A program made the position numbers and the translations under genes. A DNA stretch of 64,000 bases from NCBI GenBank assembly GCA_903871335.1, contig CAIQGE010000033.1:1-64000 (forward strand), read 5' to 3'. Source of the DNA: an uncultured Actinomycetes bacterium (GTDB lineage: Bacteria > Actinomycetota > Acidimicrobiia > Acidimicrobiales > RAAP-2). Below, piece after piece: positions 42,455-55,918 of this stretch (within the stretch, counting starts at the first letter, position 1; each line of letters begins with the position of its first letter). The notes beneath the pieces are model-generated. The model saw only the letters and a program-made list of their open reading frames with translations. It did not search any database and was not told the DNA's origin.

Positions 42455-44473
42455 CTACTGTCCGTCTCCGACAACGACGCTGGCCGCGTCGTCACTCCTT
42501 TGTACGTGCAACTCGTGCAGCAGGTCGCGAAGTGCGGCGGCCTCTTCGAACCGAAGTTCTCGTGCCGCTAACAACATCTCCTTTTCCACTCTCGATATTT
42601 CGGCGTCGAGATCATCCAAAATGGCGTCAGAGACGGCGTCGCCCGCAGCGACCGTAACTCCAACCCGAGGCGCCGGTGCTCGTAGTCGATTCAAGATATC
42701 GGCAACGTTCTTCGTCACGGTGATGGGGCTGATCCCGTGCTCCAGGTTGTACGCCTCTTGCATCGTGCGTCGGCGCTCAGTCGTGCTGATCGCCTCGCGC
42801 ATCGAATCCGTGATGCGGTCGGCGTACAAAATGGCCTCTCCATTGGCATTTCGAGCGGCACGGCCAATGGTTTGGACGAGGGCGCTGCGAGATCGCAGAA
42901 AACCCTCCTTGTCGGCGTCCAAGATGGCCACCAGTGATACCTCGGGCAAGTCCAACCCTTCGCGCAAGAGATTGATGCCGACCAGTACGTCAAATTCACC
43001 TAGTCGCAACGACCGTAGGATTTCAATCCGTTCAATCGTGTCGATGTCGCTGTGCAGGTATCGCACCCGAATGTTGTGTTTGGCCAAGTAATCAGTGAGG
43101 TCTTCGGCCATGCGCTTGGTCAAGGTGGTCACGAGGACGCGTTCTCCGCGAGCAATGACGACCTTGATGCGCTCACGGAGATCATCGATTTGGTTCCTGG
43201 TCGGCACAATCGTGACCACCGGATCCAGCAAACCGGTCGGTCGAATCACCTGCGGCACAATCTGATCCGAGTGTTCCAACTCGTACGGTCCAGGTGTCGC
43301 CGATACGAACACCATCTGCGGCACGAGGTCAATGAATTCCTCGAAGTTGAGTGGTCGATTATCGAGAGCGCTCGGCAACCGGAACCCGTGCTCGACCAAG
43401 GTCTCCTTTCGAGCCTTGTCACCAGCGAACTGTCCCCTCACCTGTGGCAGGGCGACGTGAGATTCGTCGACCACCACCAGGAAATCTGGAGGGAAATAGT
43501 CGAGCAAAGTAAAAGGACGCTCCCCTCGCCCGCGACCGTCGAGGTGGGCCGAGTAGTTCTCAATTCCCGCACAGTTGCCGGTCTGCTCGATCATCTCGAT
43601 GTCGTGTTCGGTGCGGGAACGAAGTCGTTGGGCCTCAAGAAGCTTGCCTTGCGACTCGAAGAGTCGTAGTTGTTCTCCCAATTCGGCTTCGATGGTTTGC
43701 ACCGCACGCTCGAGCGTGTCATTGCCCGTGGCGTAGTGGGATGCCGCGAAAATCGTCACTTCACCGACGTCACCTTTTTCTTCTTGGGTCATCGGATTGA
43801 AGAACGAAATACGCTCAATCTCGTCACCGAAGAACGAAATACGCAACGCCTCGTTGTCGTACGCCGGCTGTAATTCGAGGGTGTCGCCCCGCACGCGAAA
43901 TGTTCCACGGGTAACGAGAAGATCATTTCGGGAATACTGCATTTCCACGAGACGGCCGAGCAACGCACGTTGATCGACGACATCTCCGACATTCAGCGCC
44001 AACATGCGTTGGGCGTATTCAATCGGCGATCCGAGACCGTAGATGCACGACACCGATGCCACGACCACCGTGTCACGACGAGTCAGGAGCGCTGACGTCG
44101 CCGCGTGCCGCAGGCGGTCGATCTCTTCGTTGATGGAGCTGTCTTTTTCGATATACGTGTCTGAGGACGGTACATATGCCTCAGGTTGGTAGTAGTCGTA
44201 GTACGAGACAAAGAACTCAACACGATTGTTCGGCAACATGTCTCTCAACTCGGACGCCAACTGCGCCGCGAGTGACTTATTGGGCTCGAGAATCAACGTG
44301 GGCCGCTGGACGCGTTCGATCATCCACGCGATCGTGGCGGTCTTGCCCGAGCCCGTGATGCCCTCGAGAGTTTGGTAGCGCAAGCCGTTCTGTACGCCAT
44401 CAGCCAGCCGCGTGATCGCGACGGGTTGATCACCTTGTGGAGAAAAGGGAGTTTCGACGACGAAATCAGTCAC
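42455..44473 (-). CDS. uvrB: Excinuclease ABC subunit B
   Basis: A 672-residue helicase-like damage-verification protein. Walker A is [19 protein letters not shown]; the beta-hairpin that probes DNA is [20 protein letters not shown]; the helicase motifs [10 protein letters not shown] and [20 protein letters not shown] follow. A C-terminal UVR domain ([19 protein letters not shown]) binds UvrC. Normal length. It overlaps coaE upstream by 8 bp, as in mycobacteria where coaE and uvrB are close neighbours. Confidence 0.98.
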
Positions 44474-45065
44474 GTAGGAACCCGCGTTCGTTCAAGAGGA
44501 CGTCGACGGTCGCGCGCAGTTCATCCAGGGAACCTTCGTTCACGAGTGTGACATCGCACAGTTTTCGTCGTTGGTCGTTGCTGGGTTGGTTAGCGATCCG
44601 AGCCAGCGCATCGTCGCGTCGAAGTGACCGCTGGTTGACGAGACGCTCCACCGCGACATCGGGATCGGCAAGAACGCACCAGACTTCGTCGAGTTGGAAG
44701 ATGACGCGATGTTCGAGCCGAAACAAGGGTAAGGCCACGACGACGAAGTCGTCGTCGTTGACGGCCGCGATCTGGTTCACCATCGACAAACCGATCGCGG
44801 TATGGGTGATGGCGTTCAGGCGTCGGAGAGCCGAACGGTCCCGAAAGACGATGTCCGCCACGAATTCTCGGTCCAAGACTCCGTCAGCCCTTAAGATCGC
44901 GTCGCCAAAAGCGTCACGTAGTTGGTGCCACGCGGGTTGACCGGGTTCGACCACCTCACGGGCAACCACGTCAGCGTCGATGATCACGGCACCCTTCTCG
45001 CCCAGGTAGTCGGTCACCGCCGTCTTGCCCGAGCCAATTCCACCCATTACCGCGATGCGAAACAT
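44466..45065 (-). CDS. coaE: Dephospho-CoA kinase
   Basis: A 199-residue kinase for the last step of coenzyme A synthesis. The P-loop is [18 protein letters not shown] at residues ~6-17, followed by [15 protein letters not shown] and the lid with [23 protein letters not shown] 45065 is preferred over the GTG at 45095. It leads the coaE-uvrB-uvrA-uvrC-rapZ-yvcK run. Its usual upstream neighbour rpsA is 15 kb away here. Confidence 0.96.
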
Positions 45066-45111
45066 GCAGCCACCGTAGTCACCCCGTCTCCTCACTCCTA
45101 CGACGCTTCTG

Positions 45112-45123: not shown

Positions 45124-48100
45124 GTGGATCACGCGCCCAGCGATGCCAAGAGGAAACGCGTACGTGTCCCACGCCTGCACCTCGACACGCTCATTCTCGC
45201 GGTGGTGGCGTACGTCCCATTACTGCTGACGAAGCGGGGATTGCTCGCTGACGACACCAAGGTCTACCTGTATCTAGACCCGCGACACTTGCTCGCCACC
45301 GCTGCGTCGATGTGGAACGCCGACGTGGGCTTTGGGACGGTGACCCACCAGAACATCGGGTACTTGTTCCCCATGGGTCCGTATTTCTTGCTCACGAAGG
45401 CCGCCGGACTACCCGTATGGGTCAGCCAAAGGTTCTGGATGGGTTCATTGTTGTTCTTCGCGGCACTCGGGGCACGCCGGTGCGCGGAAGAATTGGGACT
45501 CTCCCGTCGAGCGGGTTGGGTCGTCGCCATCCCGTACATGTTGACCCCATTCTTGATCGTCGACATCGCGCGGACATCCGCTCTGCTCATGCCGTGGGCG
45601 GGTCTCGGGTGGATGATGATCTTCACGATTCGTGCGGCGCACCGCAACGATTGGCGCAACCCCGCGCTGTTCGCCGTGGTCGTCGCCCTCACCGGGGGCG
45701 TCAATGCCACTTCGATTCTGACGGTAGGTCTGGCGCCACTGGCGTGGCTGGTCTTCGCCGGCGCCACTCACGAGATCCACTGGCGACGAGCCATGGTCGT
45801 CGCGGCGCGCATTGGTTCGTTGTCCCTCCTTGTCTCGTTGTGGTGGCTCGCGGGTCTGTGGGCCGAAGGCAAATACGGCATCAACATCCTGAAATTCACC
45901 GAGTCATTCGCCACCGTCACGACCACCTCCACGTCGTCAGAGGTCTTCAGGGGACTGGGCTACTGGTACTTCTACGGTTCTGACGGACTTCAACCGTGGA
46001 CCGTCGGCAGCTACGCATACATGAGCGGCCAGCTCGTGCCATTGGCCAGTTTCCTGGTGCCGATGGCGGGATTTGTCGCCGCCCTCTTGCTTCGCTGGCG
46101 CTACCGACTCTTCGCGGTGCTGATCACCTTCGTGGGACTGGTGGCCGCCGTCGCCTCCTACCCACTCGCCGCCCCGACACCTCTTGGAATTGTGCTGAAG
46201 TACTTGGCCAACCACACCACGGTTGGTTTGGCGATGCGCTCGACAAATCGCGTCCTCCCGCTTCTCGTCCTCGGCCTCGCCCTACTCACGGGAGCGCTGT
46301 ACGACGCACTCCGTGAACGGCTGCCCCGTCTGACGGCTGCCGGTGCGGGGGTCTTTGGTCTCGTCTGCGTCGTCGCGCTGGCACCCCTCTTTGAGTTGCA
46401 CGCCATTCCGGCGAACTTGACTCTCCCTAGTAACGCGCCGACGTACGTGCAGCAAGCAGCGGCTGATTTGAACAAAGGTTCATCGACCAGCACAGTGCTC
46501 GGCTTGCCCGGATTGGACTTTGCCTACTACCGCTACGGGACCTATAACGACTCCATTTGGCCCGCGCTTCTTCATCGTCCCTGGGTCAGCTCTCAGGTGC
46601 AACTCGTCGGTCAACCCGCCAGCGTCAATCTGATTCGAGCCCTCGACAGCACGTTGCAAGACGGAACGGCAAATCCCGCCTCCATCGCGCCCATCGCCCG
46701 CCTCTTCGGTGCGAGTGACGTTCTCGTTCAAATGGACGGCGAGTACGAGCGGTATTCGACGCCGTTACCGCCGTACCTCGCACATCTGTTTGCCACGAAC
46801 ACGTCGGGCATGTCGTTGTCGTCTACCTACGGCCCCACCACGTCGTTTGGCGCACTTAATGGCCCCTACATCAACGAACAGGTCGCAGCCTTGCCTTTTG
46901 GTACGCAATGGCCTCAGTCGTTACAGATCTACCGCGTTGAAGGTGCCCGCCCGCTCGTGAGGTCCGAATCCCAGACCTCACCCCTCATCGTCGCCGGCGA
47001 CGGTTCGGGACTCGTATCAATGTCCAATTTGGGCATGCTGTCCAACAACGACACCATCATCTACGACGCCGCGGAGAACGGATCGACCATCAAGAAGGAC
47101 GCGGCTCAGCCCGGAGCGTGGCTCGTCCTTACCGACACGAACGCCAAGCGTCAAGACACGTTTGGAACCCTGAATTCCACGAACGGCTACGTGTTGGCCG
47201 CTAACGAAGATCCGTCGACGAACGAGCAGGAACAGACGGTTCCCATTTTCCCCCAACAAAGTTCCCGGGCACAGACGGTGGCGGTGATGACGGGTGTCAG
47301 CGGTGTCACCGCCTCGAGCTACGGCAACCCGATTACGAACAATCCCGAATATCAACCGTCGCAGGCACTTGACGGTTCAACCTCAACGTCATGGCAGGCC
47401 GCGGCCTTCTCACCGGCCATTGGCACGTGGTGGCAGGTCACGGGCCTCAAGAAGACGTCGATCTCTTCTCTCCACATCGTGCAGGCGCAATCCGTCACCC
47501 TTAATCGGTGGATCACCAAGATCGGCATTTCTATTGACGGCGGGCCGCAGATTGTGCGTTCGTTGTCGGTCGCGTCTCGCAGCGTCGGCGGCGAATCCCT
47601 CTCGATACCAGCCACAGTGGGTCGCACGGTACGCCTCACGGTCCTCGGCGTGACGGGGGACGACAAGAGTCTGCCCAGCGCCAGCGCTATTGGATTCGCG
47701 GAAGTGGGCATCAATGGTTTCGGCCCGGCGACACGAGGGCTCCTTTTGCCGACGTCTCTTCTCGAAAAGGCGGGTAGTGCAGCAGCCACCGACACACTCA
47801 GCATTGTCGTCTCTCGGTTGCGCGCGTCGCCGTATCCACCACGCCTTGACCCAGAGAGCGGCCTGATTCGCTATTTCACGCTTCCCTACGCGCGTTCGTT
47901 TACGGGTGCGGGCACGATCACGCTCAATCCCAATGCTCGCGACCAGATCATCAACAGCATTCTTGGTCGTTCGCCAGGATCGGGGACGAGTGTGATCGCG
48001 ACCGATAGTTCGTCGCACATCACCGGATCCCTCATCAATCAGTCGTGGAACGCATTCGACGGTACGACCGGAACCGCGTGGGAGCCGCGATTTCACACCG

Positions 48101-50412
48101 GTGTGGGTGAGTGGGTCGAGGAGAAGTTGAACCACCCGGTACGACTGTCAACGTTTACTTTGTCGTTGGTCAATGACGGCTACCACATGTTGCCCACGGA
48201 AATGTCCGTCAGCAATGGCTCAACGTCCGAGAACTTCGCCGTGCCCGTCACGATGGCTCCCCGCACCGGCACCTTGAACACCGTGCAGAGTTTCACGATC
48301 ACCGTGCCCGCCATGACGGGGTCGGCTTTCCGATTCACCACGAAGAAGTACCAATTCACTACCGTGATCGATCGGGTCTCAGGAGGCATCAACTTCCCTC
48401 CGATCGGTATCGCCAACATTGCGGTACCGGGGGTGCACCCGGGCGTGACGCCCGCCAGTTTCTCGACGGGATGTCGCAGCGACTTGCTCCGCATTGACGG
48501 AACGCCGATACCCGTTCAAATTCGTGGCGCTACCGCGAGCGCCCTGGCTGGTGACAGCCTGAGTTTCCACACCTGCGGCACGACTCCCATTTCTCTCAGC
48601 GTGGGAACACACAGTCTCACGAGCGCCATCGGGCCTGCGACCGGACTTAACGTGAACGATGTCCAGTTGGTTTCACCCGGTACCAACGTGGGTCCCACCT
48701 CCACCACGACCGACCTGCACGGCGGTTGGTACGGGCGCACTGTGGTGCGAGCCACCGTTTCCCCCGCCGACGCCCATCGGTGGGTCGTGCTGGGACAATC
48801 ATTCGGACCCGGGTGGCACGCCGTCCTCAATGGTCACGATCTCGGTAGTCCCACCCTGGTGGACGGAGCGTCCATGGGGTGGCGCATGCCGGCCAACGTG
48901 ACGCACAACGAGAGCATCGCATTCATCTGGGAACCGCAGAACACGGTCCTGTACGCGCTCATCTTGTCGGGAATCGGACTCCTGGTCGTCGCCTTCATGG
49001 CCATTTTTGATGTTCCCCGGCGACGCCGACTGACTAGTCGTGAACAGGACGCGGAACATGTTGACAGTGCTCCAATATTCGGAGGATTCGTCGGCACCTT
49101 GTCGGCCCCGCCCGTCGTTCTCTACACGACAGCCGTCGTCGCCGCCCTCTGCGTTTCCCTGTGGCTCTTACCTTTCACCGTCGTTGCCGCATTCTTGTGG
49201 ACCAAGAGGGGCGAGGTGGGCCGAGTGCTCGGTGCCGTGGCACTGGGAGCGCTAGTCATCGGGGTCGGCGTATCGATATCCGCGACTCTGGGCCCGTGGC
49301 CTCGCGACATCAATTGGCCCTCCCACGTGGATTACTCCAACAGTTTCGTGTGGGTGGCCTTTGCGTTCTGGCTGCTCGCGATCATTGGTTCCTTGACCTC
49401 ACGGCCCCCTGATTCTCGCCCCGCACGTCCACGTACCCCGCGAGCACCCCGGACGCCCAAAGAAAAGGTCGTGGAGAAAATGGCAGTTCCCGCACCGGAG
49501 GAACTCACTTCGGCGACCCGTCGCCGTTCGTGGCGACGACCGTGGTCGGCCGCTCCCGTTGCCGCCGTCGCGGCAACCGCCAGCGTTACCGAATCGCGAC
49601 GCCGAGGTCTCAACGTCGCGGACGGGCCGCCTCCGCCCGTTCCCGAAGGCGAAGAACCGCCTCCCATGATGATTCCGTCGTCCGGCCTACGGCGGACGTA
49701 TTTCCTCCTGCGTTCGGCAATCGCGCTGCGCCACGAACCCGACGAGCTCCAGGCACTCAACGCGCAGGACTCCATCAACCAGGTTGTCGGAAAGACCGCC
49801 ATCTTCAACCGTGATGTTCTCGACATCTCGGACGCGGCCCAATCGAATGCCGAGAGTCTGACGCAGCGAGGCGCGCGAGTCACCACCATGCGTCGAGAAG
49901 TGCCCACTTCTCGACGTGCGTTTTCGACGCCAGCCAGTGACGTGGAGTTCGTCGAGCATATCGAATTCACACCACTGCATATTCCGGCGCCCGACAACAC
50001 ATTTGACTTGGTCTTCGCCACGAACATCTTTAGTTGCGTGGCGGAGCCCGGCGTGTTGCTCGAGGAACTGGTGCGCGTGACACGACACGGCGGCACGATT
50101 TACATTCAAAATCTCATGTGGTATTCGATCTGGGGCGGCCGAGAGATGAGTCCGTGGCACGTGGTGTCGGGTGATTACGCACGACGCCGATACGTGAAGC
50201 ACAAGGGCCACGAGCCCCTTTACCGTTACGGCGTCAATTTCTTCAAAATCCGACCGCACCAGATGATGCATCTCGTACGGGCGCGCCGTGACCTCGTCGT
50301 CTACTCCATGGGGCCACGCTTCCTGCCCACTTCCTGGCGCTGGCTCCTGCGGGTACCCCTGCTACGTGACGCGGTCGTGCAGGACCTCGTCATCGTGGTC
50401 GAACGCCGTTAA
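45124..50412 (+). CDS. AftD-like arabinofuranosyltransferase fused to a methyltransferase-like domain
   Basis: A 1762-residue membrane protein. The N-terminal ~430 residues form a multi-helix GT-C core (DUF3367/AftD family); the first extracytoplasmic loop has LADDTKVYLYLDP with the acidic residues expected for the decaprenyl-phospho-sugar site. The central extracytoplasmic part contains two discoidin-like beta domains (about 742-840, SQALDGSTSTSWQA; about 965-1080, WNAFDGTTGTAWEP). Four more helices follow (~1275-1425), then a Pro/Arg-rich linker and, from ~1555, a class I methyltransferase-like domain (VLDISDAAQSNAE, then FDLVFATNIFSCVAEPGVLLEEL). The glycine-rich SAM loop is degenerate. 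AftD adds alpha-1,3-arabinofuranose to mycobacterial arabinan; the substrate here is unknown. Confidence 0.88.
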   Translation: MDHAPSDAKRKRVRVPRLHLDTLILAVVAYVPLLLTKRGLLADDTKVYLYLDPRHLLATAASMWNADVGFGTVTHQNIGYLFPMGPYFLLTKAAGLPVWVSQRFWMGSLLFFAALGARRCAEELGLSRRAGWVVAIPYMLTPFLIVDIARTSALLMPWAGLGWMMIFTIRAAHRNDWRNPALFAVVVALTGGVNATSILTVGLAPLAWLVFAGATHEIHWRRAMVVAARIGSLSLLVSLWWLAGLWAEGKYGINILKFTESFATVTTTSTSSEVFRGLGYWYFYGSDGLQPWTVGSYAYMSGQLVPLASFLVPMAGFVAALLLRWRYRLFAVLITFVGLVAAVASYPLAAPTPLGIVLKYLANHTTVGLAMRSTNRVLPLLVLGLALLTGALYDALRERLPRLTAAGAGVFGLVCVVALAPLFELHAIPANLTLPSNAPTYVQQAAADLNKGSSTSTVLGLPGLDFAYYRYGTYNDSIWPALLHRPWVSSQVQLVGQPASVNLIRALDSTLQDGTANPASIAPIARLFGASDVLVQMDGEYERYSTPLPPYLAHLFATNTSGMSLSSTYGPTTSFGALNGPYINEQVAALPFGTQWPQSLQIYRVEGARPLVRSESQTSPLIVAGDGSGLVSMSNLGMLSNNDTIIYDAAENGSTIKKDAAQPGAWLVLTDTNAKRQDTFGTLNSTNGYVLAANEDPSTNEQEQTVPIFPQQSSRAQTVAVMTGVSGVTASSYGNPITNNPEYQPSQALDGSTSTSWQAAAFSPAIGTWWQVTGLKKTSISSLHIVQAQSVTLNRWITKIGISIDGGPQIVRSLSVASRSVGGESLSIPATVGRTVRLTVLGVTGDDKSLPSASAIGFAEVGINGFGPATRGLLLPTSLLEKAGSAAATDTLSIVVSRLRASPYPPRLDPESGLIRYFTLPYARSFTGAGTITLNPNARDQIINSILGRSPGSGTSVIATDSSSHITGSLINQSWNAFDGTTGTAWEPRFHTGVGEWVEEKLNHPVRLSTFTLSLVNDGYHMLPTEMSVSNGSTSENFAVPVTMAPRTGTLNTVQSFTITVPAMTGSAFRFTTKKYQFTTVIDRVSGGINFPPIGIANIAVPGVHPGVTPASFSTGCRSDLLRIDGTPIPVQIRGATASALAGDSLSFHTCGTTPISLSVGTHSLTSAIGPATGLNVNDVQLVSPGTNVGPTSTTTDLHGGWYGRTVVRATVSPADAHRWVVLGQSFGPGWHAVLNGHDLGSPTLVDGASMGWRMPANVTHNESIAFIWEPQNTVLYALILSGIGLLVVAFMAIFDVPRRRRLTSREQDAEHVDSAPIFGGFVGTLSAPPVVLYTTAVVAALCVSLWLLPFTVVAAFLWTKRGEVGRVLGAVALGALVIGVGVSISATLGPWPRDINWPSHVDYSNSFVWVAFAFWLLAIIGSLTSRPPDSRPARPRTPRAPRTPKEKVVEKMAVPAPEELTSATRRRSWRRPWSAAPVAAVAATASVTESRRRGLNVADGPPPPVPEGEEPPPMMIPSSGLRRTYFLLRSAIALRHEPDELQALNAQDSINQVVGKTAIFNRDVLDISDAAQSNAESLTQRGARVTTMRREVPTSRRAFSTPASDVEFVEHIEFTPLHIPAPDNTFDLVFATNIFSCVAEPGVLLEELVRVTRHGGTIYIQNLMWYSIWGGREMSPWHVVSGDYARRRYVKHKGHEPLYRYGVNFFKIRPHQMMHLVRARRDLVVYSMGPRFLPTSWRWLLRVPLLRDAVVQDLVIVVERR

Positions 50413-51551
50413 CGCGCTCGGTCGTTCAAGAGGCGGAAGAGCGAGAGCGCGACTTCGTCCCACGAGAACGTCGCGGCGTACCGCAGAGCGCCCGCCTGCA
50501 GACGAATGAGCTCCTCAGGGTCCTTGAGGGCCGCCACGAGCGCGTCGGCGAGCGATTCCTCCTCGGGCACCAGTACTCCACTTTCCCCCGGGAGAACGGC
50601 ATCACGGTGGCCGGCAATATCGAGGACCACCGCCGGTGTTCCGCACGCCGCCGCTTCCGTGATCGTCATCCCCCAACCTTCACGTAGAGAGTTGGACGTG
50701 AGGATCCACGCGGACCGGTAGAGATCACGTAGTTCCTCGTCCGAAATACGCCCCGGCAATGAGATCCACTCTTCGCCACCGACCGCAGCAATGGTGGCTT
50801 CCAGATCCGAGCGCAGGTACCCCTCCCCCGCAATAACCAAGCGCGCGTTCGGAACCTGGGCGTGCACGTCGGCAAAGGTGCGAATCAACTCATCGAATCT
50901 CTTGACGGGGGCTAGACGACCCACCGCGACCACGAGGGGCGTATCAGAGCGTGTCCCACCTGGCGAAAAGAACGAAGAAATACCGACGGGCACCACCGCC
51001 ACGTTCTTTAGCCCCAGAATGTCGCGGATCTCTTCCGCGCTGGAGGTGGACAAGGTGCTGATGCTGGACCGGCGATAAAAGAACGGCGCGATCCGATGTT
51101 CGAGCAGCCAACCAACGCGCGAGAGCGGTCCCGGGACAGAAATTTTCCACATGGCACCGTGTACGTGGTGGATGAGCGTCAGGCGCGGACCTCGAAACCA
51201 CAGAGGGCCAAAGAAAGGTATGCCGTTCCAGATCTCGACGACAGCGTCGTAGTTCTGTCGGTCGTGACGGAAGCCGCGCATGATTGCCTGAGGAAACACC
51301 TGATAACGGCCGCCAGCGCGTTCCACGAAATATCCGTGGCGCCGAATGCGGGACGTTCGTCCCGCGACAGCCGAGGTTCGTGCATCCACGACGAGACCGA
51401 CGGCGGCCCATCGACGCAGGACTTCGTCCGCGTGCAACTCACTGCCACCCGCCTCCGGATCTTCGAGATCCCGCCACGCCAGAACGCGAATCTTCTTAAG
51501 AGGAGACGACGCCGCAAGGGCGCGCAACTCGGCGACGGGATCACGCGTCAC
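50409..51551 (-). CDS. Family 4 glycosyltransferase
   Basis: A ~380-residue retaining glycosyltransferase of the GT-B fold. The N-terminal domain starts with IRVLAWRDLEDPEAGGSELHADEVLRRWA; the GT4 C-terminal signature follows as LVVAVGRLAPVKRFDELI, the SLPGRISDEELRDLYRSAWILTS block and EGWGMTITEAAACGTPAVVLD, with the EX7E motif. The first 56 codons of the open frame lie inside the flippase gene; GTG 51551 overlaps its stop as GTGA. It is convergent with the AftD-like gene, the two TAA codons sharing a TTAA. Donor and acceptor are unknown. Confidence 0.9.
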   Translation of the reverse strand: MTRDPVAELRALAASSPLKKIRVLAWRDLEDPEAGGSELHADEVLRRWAAVGLVVDARTSAVAGRTSRIRRHGYFVERAGGRYQVFPQAIMRGFRHDRQNYDAVVEIWNGIPFFGPLWFRGPRLTLIHHVHGAMWKISVPGPLSRVGWLLEHRIAPFFYRRSSISTLSTSSAEEIRDILGLKNVAVVPVGISSFFSPGGTRSDTPLVVAVGRLAPVKRFDELIRTFADVHAQVPNARLVIAGEGYLRSDLEATIAAVGGEEWISLPGRISDEELRDLYRSAWILTSNSLREGWGMTITEAAACGTPAVVLDIAGHRDAVLPGESGVLVPEEESLADALVAALKDPEELIRLQAGALRYAATFSWDEVALSLFRLLNDRAR

Positions 51552-52819
51552 GCTCGGGCCTCCTCCCGCAACCGAGCGCGTAGACGGTAGACCGCAGCGA
51601 CGAAAAGACCGACGACGACCAGACATTGCACTTCGAGGTCCCGCTGCGCGGTCGCACGCCACGCTCCATGCGCTCCCACGATCCACACAAAGCCAATCCC
51701 AACACACACGGTGAGCCACAGGGTGGGCCAGCGGGCTCCGTCACCCAGGAGGAACGTCACCAAAACTGTTGATACCGATAGCACCACCATCGCCAACACC
51801 AGAGTCATCAGAGCATTCGAGGCATGGCTGTAGCGGACACCGAAAACGTCGATGAGCAACGTATCGGGAATCAGCGCGGAGACGACCAGCAACAACGAGG
51901 CGGGTAGCGACAAGATCACACCAACCACCCCTAACTGTTTGAGGACGTCACCACCTTTTCGGTTGGCCAGCGCCGCTTCGGGCAGGAGGAAACTGCTCAA
52001 GATGGTCGCGGCGTAGACCAACGTCTTGGCGATCTGCGAGATGGCGGTATAGGAGCCGCCACCGTGTGGGTTCGCGTGGCCGATGGTGAAGACGTCGATG
52101 AATTGCAAGACCGCCATCAGGCCGAGTGTCCAGAACGCGACCAGCAGCTCCACGCTCACTCCCGTATGCGTCAGGGTCAGCGACGTATCTACGGGATCCT
52201 TGGAGGTCGTGAGACGCGCGGCGTGCCAACGAGTGATCAGTTCGGCGGTCAGTAGCCCCAAGCCGTAACCCGCCACACCTTGAGTCGTTCCCGCCAAGAT
52301 GAAAACTGTCCGCGCCACTCCTTCCACCACGAAGTTCAAGGCGAGATCGTTGTATCTCTGCCGCGACTGAAGCAGGGCGCGGTCCACCGACACCACGGCA
52401 TAGACAATGCCCGCGAGAATGACCAGCCACACATCGATCCACGCTCGATGACCCAACCAGCTCGCCACCACGACCGACAAGGGAATAGTGAGCAAAGCAC
52501 CTAGTGCGGCCGCTCGCACAATTCTCTGACGAAGTCGCGCCTCCCACCGACGCGTAAGACCTTCTTCTCCGCGCACGATGTAATACGTCGCCCGACGCAC
52601 AACGGCCACGCTGAGAGCGGAGCCGGGCAGGGCGACGACGAAGAAGACACCCACCATCTGGGAGTACGCGCTGTACGTATTCGGCGCTAGGAGCCTCGCG
52701 ATGAAGAAAGTGACGCCGAGATTGAGAAGGTTGGCGAATCCTCCCGCTAACGCGACGACGAGGGCGTTAGAGAGAAGTCGACGCCACGCGGATGACGTCT
52801 CACTGGCGGTGGTGGTCAT
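51548..52819 (-). CDS. Polysaccharide/lipid-oligosaccharide flippase-like membrane protein
   Basis: A 423-residue protein with about 12 transmembrane helices in the MOP/Wzx arrangement: LSNALVVALAGGFANLLNLGVTFF as TM1, then FFIARLLAPNTYSAYSQMVGV, a short positively charged loop after TM4, and a C-terminal helix pair. Wzx proteins flip undecaprenyl-linked sugars to the outer face. The start is ATG 52819, 11 bp after the stop of the oxidoreductase gene. With the downstream GT4 it forms one transcript. Assignment of the cargo is inference from context. Confidence 0.8.
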   Translation of the reverse strand: MTTTASETSSAWRRLLSNALVVALAGGFANLLNLGVTFFIARLLAPNTYSAYSQMVGVFFVVALPGSALSVAVVRRATYYIVRGEEGLTRRWEARLRQRIVRAAALGALLTIPLSVVVASWLGHRAWIDVWLVILAGIVYAVVSVDRALLQSRQRYNDLALNFVVEGVARTVFILAGTTQGVAGYGLGLLTAELITRWHAARLTTSKDPVDTSLTLTHTGVSVELLVAFWTLGLMAVLQFIDVFTIGHANPHGGGSYTAISQIAKTLVYAATILSSFLLPEAALANRKGGDVLKQLGVVGVILSLPASLLLVVSALIPDTLLIDVFGVRYSHASNALMTLVLAMVVLSVSTVLVTFLLGDGARWPTLWLTVCVGIGFVWIVGAHGAWRATAQRDLEVQCLVVVGLFVAAVYRLRARLREEARA

Positions 52820-52829
52820 TTCCGAATGC

Positions 52830-54317
52830 TCAGGCGGACGGGCTCCGCTTCGGGAGCACGGGCGCGTCACGCCCGGTGCCTTCACGACCTGACGTGGACG
52901 AGGACGTCTCGTGGTATTCCTCTTCCACGTTGACCGCCCAGATGTCGTTGTGAGCGCCGTAGATGTTCTCCACGGTGAGCATCGCGGTAAACATCGAGTG
53001 ATCCTGGTTGTTGTACTTGTGCATCCCGTTACGACCGATCAAGTGCACGTTCGGCAGGTCCGCGGCCAGATAGTCGCTGATGGCCTTGACATTCTCTTTG
53101 TACGTACTGTCGTAGTAGGGGTACGCCTTGGGCATACGGAACACGTACCCCAGTTCAATCGCCTCAGGATTCTTCACGAGCCCCAAGAAACCCAGTTCCT
53201 TCTTGCCCATCTCGATGAGGTCTTCGTCCTTCGCGTTCCACAGCTCGTCGCCTTCGAATACGAAGTATTCAAGACCGAGGCATGTCCGTCCTTCTTTCAC
53301 CATGAACGGCGACCACGAACCAAAGTTTTGGATACGCCCGACTTTGACTTCGGACGCGTGAATGTAGATCCAGTTGTCGGGAAATGCCTGATCCTCAGGA
53401 ATAACCAGAGCCACCGTCAAGAAGTCGCGGTAGTGCAAATCGTGTCCCGCGGCGATCACCTTGTTCGGAGCGGCCGGTTCAAAGGCGTCCACCAACTGCG
53501 CCATGGGCATCGTGGAAATGACGTGAGAAGCCGCCTGGTGCGTGACCGCACCGTCGGGGCCCTGCACATCAACGCCGACAGCCCGACCATTTTCGTGTCG
53601 GATACCCACCACTCGATGACGAAGCTCCACGCGGCCGCCCTTTTCGCGGATCAAGTCCGTGCATCTCTCCCACATCATTCCGGGGCCGTACTTGGGATAC
53701 TGGAATTCTTCGATCAAACTCGTGATATCTGTTTGATTGCGCTTCGGCATGAGTGCGTTCGAGATCGCGTTGCCCAAGGACAGACCCTTCACCCGCTGAG
53801 CCGCCCAGTCCGCCGGCATCTGGTGCACCGGCACGCCCCACACTTTTTCGGTGTACGTCTTGAAGAACCGTCGGTACAGTCGCCAGCCGAATCGCGCGAC
53901 GAGCCAACCCTCGTAGTTGGTCTGGTCCTTGGGCGGGTGGACCTTGGCCCACCCGTAGCTCCCCACGCTGCGGACGGCCTCAATGAAACCAAGGTTCTTG
54001 AGCGCGTTCGCGGGCTTCAGCGGGTAGTCGTAGTACTTGCCGTCGTAGAAAATGCGTGACATTCGAGGTCGAAGGAGAAAGTCCTCGTCCGGCAAGATTT
54101 CGTGCCAGAAGGCCTCAACTTCCGGCACCTTGGTGAAGAAACGGTGACCCCCGATATCAAAGCGCCAACCCTCTCGCTCGACGGTGCGACTGATGCCGCC
54201 CACGACACCATCGGCCTCATAGACGACCACGGTGCCACCACGCCGCAGCACCTCGTATGCGGCGGTCAGTCCCGCCGGTCCTGCTCCGATAATGACAACG
54301 GGGTTTTGCTCAACCAT
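52830..54317 (-). CDS. FAD-dependent oxidoreductase, UDP-galactopyranose-mutase/protoporphyrinogen-oxidase-like
   Basis: A 495-residue flavoprotein. The dinucleotide-binding motif is VVIIGAGPAGLTAAYEVLRR, followed by VYEADGVVGGISRTVEREGW and the GGHRFFTK segment. A YYDYPLKP stretch and RFGWRLYRRFFKTYTEKVWG resemble UDP-galactopyranose mutases and their long actinobacterial relatives, which make furanose sugar nucleotides or act on lipid-linked precursors. A role in sugar activation for the glycan cluster is inference. Start ATG 54317: TAAGGT lies seven bases upstream; the frame also opens at TTG 54335. A Ser/Thr-rich tail ends the protein. Confidence 0.82.
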   Translation of the reverse strand: MVEQNPVVIIGAGPAGLTAAYEVLRRGGTVVVYEADGVVGGISRTVEREGWRFDIGGHRFFTKVPEVEAFWHEILPDEDFLLRPRMSRIFYDGKYYDYPLKPANALKNLGFIEAVRSVGSYGWAKVHPPKDQTNYEGWLVARFGWRLYRRFFKTYTEKVWGVPVHQMPADWAAQRVKGLSLGNAISNALMPKRNQTDITSLIEEFQYPKYGPGMMWERCTDLIREKGGRVELRHRVVGIRHENGRAVGVDVQGPDGAVTHQAASHVISTMPMAQLVDAFEPAAPNKVIAAGHDLHYRDFLTVALVIPEDQAFPDNWIYIHASEVKVGRIQNFGSWSPFMVKEGRTCLGLEYFVFEGDELWNAKDEDLIEMGKKELGFLGLVKNPEAIELGYVFRMPKAYPYYDSTYKENVKAISDYLAADLPNVHLIGRNGMHKYNNQDHSMFTAMLTVENIYGAHNDIWAVNVEEEYHETSSSTSGREGTGRDAPVLPKRSPSA

Positions 54318-54324
54318 GCACGAA

Positions 54325-54330
54325 ACCTTA
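54325..54330 (-). promoter_or_regulatory. Leaderless-type -10 box of the FAD oxidoreductase gene
   Basis: TAAGGT on the minus strand, seven bases before ATG 54317. It places the promoter inside the upstream TTG-started extension, arguing for the shorter protein. Confidence 0.45.
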
Positions 54331-54358
54331 GTCAAGGCTTACGTGAACGTTTTCGGCA

Positions 54359-55918
54359 CTAACGGACGAGTTGCTGCAATTCCATGGATTGGTAATAACC
54401 GCTGAGCCCCAACGGCACGAGAGTCACCAGGTGGCGCTGGGTGGAGCGCGCCAAGGCTTCGGTAAAGTCAAAACACGTCCGCTTCAGCCCGTAATTCGGG
54501 GCCCACACCACGTAGACCGGGGTGCTCGCGGTGATGGAGTTCGCTTCACGAGCCGCATTCTGAACGGGAGTCTGGGCATTGTACGCATCGAGGTAGTCGT
54601 ACCAATTCACAATCGACGGATCCTCAAAGCGCGGATAGCCGATGTAGGTCAAGTCCTTGGGTGCATATCGCAGGAGGGACGGACCGAGTTGATCGGGGCA
54701 GACGTACACCAAGGAACCCGCTGGTGCGGCCTTCAGGGCCTCACCAATCACGCCACCCTGACTGCGTTGCACGTTGACACCCCACTTGTCGGTCCAGAGC
54801 GCAGCACCGGACAACAATCCCAACACCACGATGATGCGCAATGGTGTTTCGAAATTTCGGATGCCCCGTGCCGCCAACATCGAGATCGGAATAGCGACCA
54901 CCGCGGCGTAGCGCGGAACGTATGCCGAACCGGACACGTGCGAGGCAACCAAACCAAAGGCCATGGTGACCATGACAATGAACGTCAGGGTTCGGGCGTC
55001 CGACGCCCCCGTGTAATCCAGCAGCAGTGTTCGTTCTGAGCGTTTCATCGCCAGACCGAAAACCCCGTACAACACGAGCCCGACAAATACGAGCATCGTG
55101 ACTTCATTGTGCAAGGACGCGACGACCATGTGAACGCTTTGGTTGACGGTGAAACCGTTGAACCAGGTGAAGATTTGGTAGATGCCAGGACCAGGCGCCC
55201 AAGGCGTACCCGTGTGGAGGCGCTGAGAATTGAAGATCGGCACCCAGGGCAGGAATGCGACAAACGCCAGCGCGGGAGCGAGAACCAGCATCCAGTCTCG
55301 ACGACCGGCCTCTCGACGATGGACAAACCATCTGATCAACCCAAAAAGCCCGAAGACACCCACGAAGTAGATGGCCCAATAGTGCGTGTACAGCATCGTC
55401 GCACCGACAACAGCCAAAGTGACCGTGGTCGACCACCGGGGCTGATTGAGGTGGTGTCGCAAAACCAACAACAGAATGCAGCTCTCCAGCATCACCAACG
55501 AGTACATGCGAGTTTCGGTCGCGAAGTACACCGTGTACGGCAGCACCGCTACCACGGCTAATGCCAGCCACGCGGTGGTCTTCTCGAACCACGCGCGAGC
55601 CGCGAAAAAGACCACCACCAGTGTCAGAACCGATACGAGACCGGAGAATCCGCGGACGTCAAAATCACTCGTTCCAACAACTTTCATCCACCCGTGTAGG
55701 AGAAAGTAATAGAGCGGTGGCGCTCCGTCATTCTTGAGGTACCCGACAATTTGGCTGAAGGAATGCTGAGCAATATTGACGCCCTGCGCCTCATCGAGCC
55801 ACAACTTGGACGTCGTGCGAAATCGGAAGAAGATTCCCGCGACCACATCGAGGGCAATGAGAACCGGAAGACCGATCGTGGCCAGTCGGTCCAGTTGTTT
55901 CCAATTCGATCGTGCCAT
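54359..55918 (-). CDS. GT-C-type membrane glycosyltransferase (ArnT/PMT-like)
   Basis: A 519-residue integral membrane protein with about 10-12 helices. After TM1 comes an extracytoplasmic loop with LWLDEAQGVNIAQHSF, the D-E motif used by polyprenyl-phosphate-sugar-dependent transferases (PMT/ArnT/Dpm-type glycosyltransferase 39/83 families). The C-terminal domain is extracytoplasmic (LTYIGYPRFEDPSIVNWYDY). It probably transfers a sugar from a lipid carrier to a cell-wall acceptor or protein. ATG 55918 has TAGAGT six bases upstream, so leaderless. It is the first gene of the minus-strand part of the cluster, with its own promoter. Confidence 0.82.
   Translation of the reverse strand: MARSNWKQLDRLATIGLPVLIALDVVAGIFFRFRTTSKLWLDEAQGVNIAQHSFSQIVGYLKNDGAPPLYYFLLHGWMKVVGTSDFDVRGFSGLVSVLTLVVVFFAARAWFEKTTAWLALAVVAVLPYTVYFATETRMYSLVMLESCILLLVLRHHLNQPRWSTTVTLAVVGATMLYTHYWAIYFVGVFGLFGLIRWFVHRREAGRRDWMLVLAPALAFVAFLPWVPIFNSQRLHTGTPWAPGPGIYQIFTWFNGFTVNQSVHMVVASLHNEVTMLVFVGLVLYGVFGLAMKRSERTLLLDYTGASDARTLTFIVMVTMAFGLVASHVSGSAYVPRYAAVVAIPISMLAARGIRNFETPLRIIVVLGLLSGAALWTDKWGVNVQRSQGGVIGEALKAAPAGSLVYVCPDQLGPSLLRYAPKDLTYIGYPRFEDPSIVNWYDYLDAYNAQTPVQNAAREANSITASTPVYVVWAPNYGLKRTCFDFTEALARSTQRHLVTLVPLGLSGYYQSMELQQLVR

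Follow-up and report, generated by a model that had tools for sequence, protein, structure and literature searches.

Rv0224c (MtrP) is a poorly understood protein of the mycobacterial envelope, encoded in the aftD-mmpA-tmaT cluster. The reference AftD is Rv0236c, which belongs to GT53, carries the Pfam domain PF11847 and has been solved from Mycobacterium abscessus (structures 6w98 and 6wbx). MtrP (Rv0224c / NCgl2764 / cg3168) was described from corynebacterial mutants as a putative methyltransferase needed for the acetylation and transport of trehalose mycolates; in Corynebacterium glutamicum the deletions of MtrP, MmpA and TmaT caused the same envelope defect, with the role of MtrP undefined (PMC8698533). 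Rv0224c is listed as essential in Mycobacterium tuberculosis (PMC7775120), and AcpM is a cytosolic partner on mycobacterial AftD that seems to be functionally important there (PMC7341804).

The window, a whole stretch of 64,000 nucleotides from an uncultured member of the order Acidimicrobiales, encodes a protein in which an AftD-type transferase continues into a methyltransferase-like tail. Literature searches found no publication on a fusion of AftD with a methyltransferase, nor on arabinofuranosyltransferases in Acidimicrobiia. The analysis was purely computational, and all genomes analysed were draft or metagenome assemblies.

Domain plan and gene neighbourhood

The features of the locus are as follows (aa, residues of the fused protein).

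44466..45095, minus strand: CoaE (Pfam, synteny), first gene of the conserved CoaE-UvrB-UvrA-UvrC flank by which the orthologous locus is recognised
45124..50412, plus strand: fusion of an AftD-like GT-C transferase and a putative MtrP-family pseudo-methyltransferase (single open frame, 1762 aa; same fusion in genomes G006, G016, G013 and G152)
45220..47223, plus strand: GT-C_AftD domain, aa 33-700 (Pfam PF11847, E 1.5e-82; alignment to 6wbx)
47305..47649, plus strand: F5/8 type C module (discoidin-like, carbohydrate-binding type), aa 728-842 (Pfam PF00754, family E 5.5e-15)
48949..49398, plus strand: C-terminal transmembrane helices, aa about 1276-1425 (hydropathy, flanking K/R counts)
49399..49668, plus strand: Pro/Arg/Ala-rich linker, aa 1426-1515, varying among species
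49600..49617, plus strand: RRGLNV linker motif, aa 1493-1498 (homologue comparison)
49669..50409, plus strand: class-I methyltransferase fold without SAM-site residues, assigned to the MtrP family (AF2, Foldseek, motif table)
49816..49848, plus strand: degenerate motif I, VLDISDAAQSN versus VLDVGGGPGYF in intact relatives
49891..49893, plus strand: Arg, aa 1590, closing beta-2; intact relatives carry Glu/Asp here, the expected ribose ligand
50409..51719, minus strand: GT4 glycosyltransferase, convergent neighbour (Pfam), conserved next to intact and degenerate fusions alike
51548..52885, minus strand: probable MOP-superfamily flippase (WzxE/MurJ/MATE-like; weak AF2 model, pLDDT 65)
52830..54335, minus strand: PRK07208 FAD protein, distantly UDP-galactopyranose-mutase-like (NCBIfam NF005548, 788 bits)
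54359..55918, minus strand: GT-C PMT_2-type glycosyltransferase (Pfam PF13231)

The frame of the fusion starts at GTG and contains no internal stops or frameshifts, and codon-position GC of the coding type extends through the C-terminal domain. Four further genomes of the same genus encode full fusions at the corresponding locus, in open frames of 1763, 1714, 1708 and 1713 aa (G006, G016, G013 and G152, respectively), the tails of the first three being 54, 48 and 43% identical to that of the window protein; a sixth genome (G178) has a matching fragment at a contig end. Because full-length fusions occur in these four other genomes, and thus in five, a frameshift or a local assembly artefact was ruled out as their source.

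The window protein scored 278-281 bits against PF11847 (curated cut-off 26). Its D-T-K motif at aa 44, also present in fused homologues, was aligned with SPDTK of M. abscessus AftD; the Asp of this motif in the first periplasmic loop is conserved, ADDTKVYLYLDP lying opposite SPDTKLDLAINP of 6wbx, and by analogy with GT-C enzymes it is the putative catalytic residue. A second discoidin-like stretch at about aa 954-1011 matched PF25302 weakly, and PF24607, the AftD-specific third carbohydrate-binding module, gave no match in the window protein at E 0.1; it was found in the intact fusion of G126. Simple hydropathy detected 13 clear hydrophobic segments ahead of the linker; AftD has sixteen transmembrane helices. 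Arg and Lys are abundant behind the last segment (aa 1407-1425), which predicts a cytoplasmic linker and tail and a GT-C active site facing outwards.

No Pfam match was obtained for the protein at 51548-52885; with its weak AF2 model the best Foldseek match was 6fhz (6.5e-7), and WzxE (9g9n) was matched at 1.2e-6. The PRK07208 protein scored 31 bits against TIGR00031, far under the cut-off. The GT4, probable flippase, PRK07208 and PMT_2 GT-C neighbours would fit a locus that assembles a lipid-linked glycan.

UbiA, DprE1 and DprE2, which constitute the decaprenyl-phosphoarabinose (arabinose donor) pathway, are encoded side by side on another contig of the window's genome (L137:247-3313, G000:C30), each above its NCBIfam cut-off. 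Emb (PF04602) and canonical Glf (PF03275) were absent from all 11 genomes searched, including the window's own, with positive controls. The original prediction, according to which no arabinogalactan partner genes accompany the protein, is thus correct for Emb and Glf but not for the donor genes. Family membership and these donor genes point to arabinose specificity; the large membrane enzyme probably builds an arabinose-containing sugar of the cell envelope, and the polymer made may possibly be new.

DprE1 was matched in 99 of the 99 genomes of the genus (above cut-off in 78), with or without AftD; this genus-wide presence contrasts with the patchy occurrence of AftD-type genes, found in only about ten of the 99, and tells against the donor genes as a sign of arabinose specificity.

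Identity and history of the methyltransferase-like tail

AF2, run on input rows that excluded plasmid-collection records, modelled the tail with confidence as a class-I methyltransferase fold (pLDDT 84.6, pTM 0.83), all top Foldseek matches have this fold (best 3l8d, E 1.4e-12), and Pfam places Methyltransf_11 at aa 1574-1661 (1.4e-8). A tblastn match (31% identity over 197 aa, E 7e-30) relates the tail to the Nocardia farcinica gene at the MtrP position. There the order is AftD, acyltransferase-3, PorA family, 10-segment membrane protein, 9-segment membrane protein, GT4, methyltransferase and aldehyde dehydrogenase, an order that we take to match the region from Rv0236c to Rv0223c, the methyltransferase then being MtrP. 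With this gene as anchor, sequence and synteny assign the tail to the MtrP (Rv0224c) family.

An AftD-like nature of MmpA was rejected: comparing AftD with Nocardia MmpA by hhalign gave a weak match (probability 12.6%, E 0.0023), which did not confirm the homology given in PMC8698533. In G112 and G109, long MmpA-like ORFs (655-662 aa) next to the methyltransferase were dismissed as shadow ORFs.

Standalone relatives of the tail have the motifs D-x-G-G-G-x-G, an acid after beta-2, GDG..LP and SSNVLEHV, and the SAM-site residues are kept in 24/24 standalone or sister-genus copies, save one Gly-to-Ala change in two. In the window's genus, 8/8 compared copies have lost the three motif-I glycines, the beta-2 acid (Arg in seven of the eight), the motif-II Asp and the Glu and His of LEH. 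An intact methyltransferase at this position was ruled out for the genus by this motif table, and judged by these residues the tail is a pseudo-methyltransferase, presumably without catalysis. The beta-1 acid is still Asp or Glu in 7/8 copies, and the GGxE..PWH region, GGREMSPWH at aa 1671-1679 of the window protein, is retained in 8/8. The linker is otherwise variable; its motif RRGLN(V/M) occurs in each of the five full degenerate fusions and each of the three split genes, with M instead of V in two cases, and is missing from the intact fusions checked.

All SAM motifs are intact in the fusions of three sister genera of the same family, g29, g30 and g44 (G125, G126 and G081-G085), and for g30 and g44 these fusions lie in the same UvrABC-CoaE / GT4 / PRK07208 / PMT locus. 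Viral contigs yielded no relatives. A tail of this kind is lacking in many PF11847 proteins, and PF11847 proteins are present in 78 of the 172 genomes of the window's family, a family of the Acidimicrobiales which is not known to make mycolates.

The central claim of the original prediction, an AftD-type GT-C enzyme covalently joined to a methyltransferase-fold domain, was confirmed by the single open frame and by the AF2 and Foldseek results: no frameshift separates two genes, the C-terminal domain is modelled with the foreseen fold, and homologues of the same architecture were found in the genus and in g29, g30 and g44. That AftD homologues stop at their last helices, as it says, is true of most PF11847 proteins but not of those of g29, g30 and g44, and its remark that AftD is known from mycolate-containing bacteria is at odds with the 78 genomes of this family.

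In G125 the GT-C domain is split across two frames of 471 and 1480 aa (L113:6041-8091), probably by a frameshift in that draft genome.

In the tree the degenerate copies form one clade (support 100/100). With the standalone genes as assumed outgroup, the g29/g30 intact fusions branch first, then those of g44 and then the degenerate ones of the window's genus (g1), an order that fits one fusion and one loss of the SAM site. The stem branch of the degenerate clade measures 1.45 changes per site, indicating fast evolution of the tail. Two species (G192 and G190) share a split of the fusion: an in-frame TAG is followed, after one codon, by an ATG in the same frame (L111:9454-9462 and L112:10847-10855), so that the tail is a separate gene of 316 aa. 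In G189 it is a gene of 257 aa that overlaps the transferase by 4 bases (L141:918-1691); this tail retains RRRGLNM, has lost the GGxE..PWH region and is more degraded than the others.

In G128, two acyltransferase-3 genes and a GT4 separate an AftD-like gene from a standalone methyltransferase that shares its locus and strand (L124:5069-17254), an arrangement plausible as the pre-fusion state. Intact separate MtrP-family genes were found in G152 and G195 of the window's genus (L140:43-855 and L128:3868-4680), that of G195 divergently adjoining an acyltransferase-3 gene; none was detected in the window's genome. The G128 locus resembles the mycobacterial MtrP-TmaT-AftD cluster.

Role of the tail

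The window protein is best explained, with a probability of roughly 0.6, as an arabinofuranosyltransferase whose pseudo-methyltransferase tail lies in the cytoplasm and serves regulation or assembly. It would be a GT-C enzyme that depends on polyprenyl-phosphate-arabinose and acts at the periplasmic side, with a tail at the cytoplasmic face derived from an MtrP-family (Rv0224c-type) methyltransferase. A single fusion in the ancestor common with g29, g30 and g44 would have produced a protein whose SAM site was intact; the fusion-bearing g1 members would descend from an ancestor in which this site was lost and the domain kept as a pseudo-methyltransferase. Tail and RRGLNV motif would then probably serve for docking or regulation and link the transferase with the GT4, the flippase and the FAD protein encoded at this locus. 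The scaffold alternative of the original prediction is now the best fit, with a regulatory role or a scaffold role suggested for the tail. This reading draws on the conserved fusion and locus, the SAM-site residues lost while the predicted fold is kept, the tree, the constraint on the tail in one species pair, the linker motif confined to the degenerate group, the lack of a detected intact MtrP-family gene in this genome, the donor genes, the GT4 fusions of MtrP-family domains beside AftD in other lineages, and AcpM as a cytosolic partner of mycobacterial AftD.

The main rival is decay without function: the methyltransferase would have become dispensable after the fusion, its active site would have been lost, and what is left would be a relic that does little harm as a cytoplasmic C-terminal domain. 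The fast evolution with its long tree branches, the splits in three genomes and the far more degraded separate tail of G189, which has lost GGxE..PWH, fit such slow decay; the separate intact MtrP-family genes of G152 and G195 speak in its favour as well. However, the tail is retained with open frames in every genome of the genus whose locus is readable to its end, its folded model is confident, GGxE..PWH is kept in all compared copies, and a new linker motif has arisen and is conserved. The tails of G192 and G190 differ with a dN/dS of 0.06-0.07, which indicates purifying selection on the degenerate tail in this split pair, the only one to which the figure applies, dS being saturated between fused copies. 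A relic is considered unlikely.

Much less probable still is a bifunctional protein, as originally proposed, in which the tail remains an active methyltransferase with unusual SAM binding. The class-I fold, the beta-1 acid and the GGxE..PWH region would suit it, but the glycine loop, the beta-2 acid, the motif-II Asp and the LEH residues are gone from every compared copy of the genus and kept in the relatives. By analogy with AcpM, whose association with AftD appears functionally important (PMC7341804), the tail might instead sense another small molecule or an acyl or lipid carrier by binding; the altered pocket on a retained fold would allow this, but the pocket residues differ among species, and we give this reading a small chance only, above that of an active methyltransferase and below that of a relic.

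Returning to the pseudo-methyltransferase module, a wider and rather doubtful extension is that MtrP-family proteins in general are cytoplasmic partners of AftD/MmpA-type GT-C membrane proteins, with a structural or regulatory job and a methyltransferase activity that is secondary or dispensable. It is suggested because one lineage fused the two proteins, lost the SAM site and kept the domain.

Significance and comparison with known systems

The natural fusion of an MtrP-family domain with an AftD-type transferase argues strongly that the two work together, also outside mycolate-making bacteria. It ties together two products of the envelope gene cluster of mycobacteria and offers a route to the function of MtrP. 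The passage from an intact to a disabled methyltransferase within one bacterial family makes it testable whether MtrP must methylate or only bind its partner.

Like AftD, the window protein has the GT-C_AftD domain, the DTK motif, discoidin-like modules and C-terminal helices, and its closest solved proteins are those of M. abscessus AftD (phmmer E 2.3e-51; the match is confined to aa 22-1306, so that about 450 residues have no counterpart). It differs by belonging to a divergent clade (281 bits versus 901 for Nocardia AftD), by the additional linker and pseudo-methyltransferase of about 330 aa and by its locus. The tail shares with MtrP the GGxE..PWH region and an adjoining GT4, whereas it is covalently joined to an AftD-type transferase, has lost the SAM-site residues and occurs in an organism not known for mycolates.

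In three other lineages (G047, G038 and G117) a GT4 is fused with an MtrP-family methyltransferase near a canonical AftD (L060:6484-8691, L062:10165-12147 and L123:6623-8560). These fusions also join the MtrP-family domain to a partner from the same gene set near AftD, but the partner is the GT4 and the SAM motif is intact. AcpM on mycobacterial AftD and on EmbA-EmbB likewise represents a cytosolic non-transferase partner of an arabinosyltransferase (PMC7341804); unlike the tail of the window protein, it is a separate acyl carrier protein and not a fused pseudo-enzyme.
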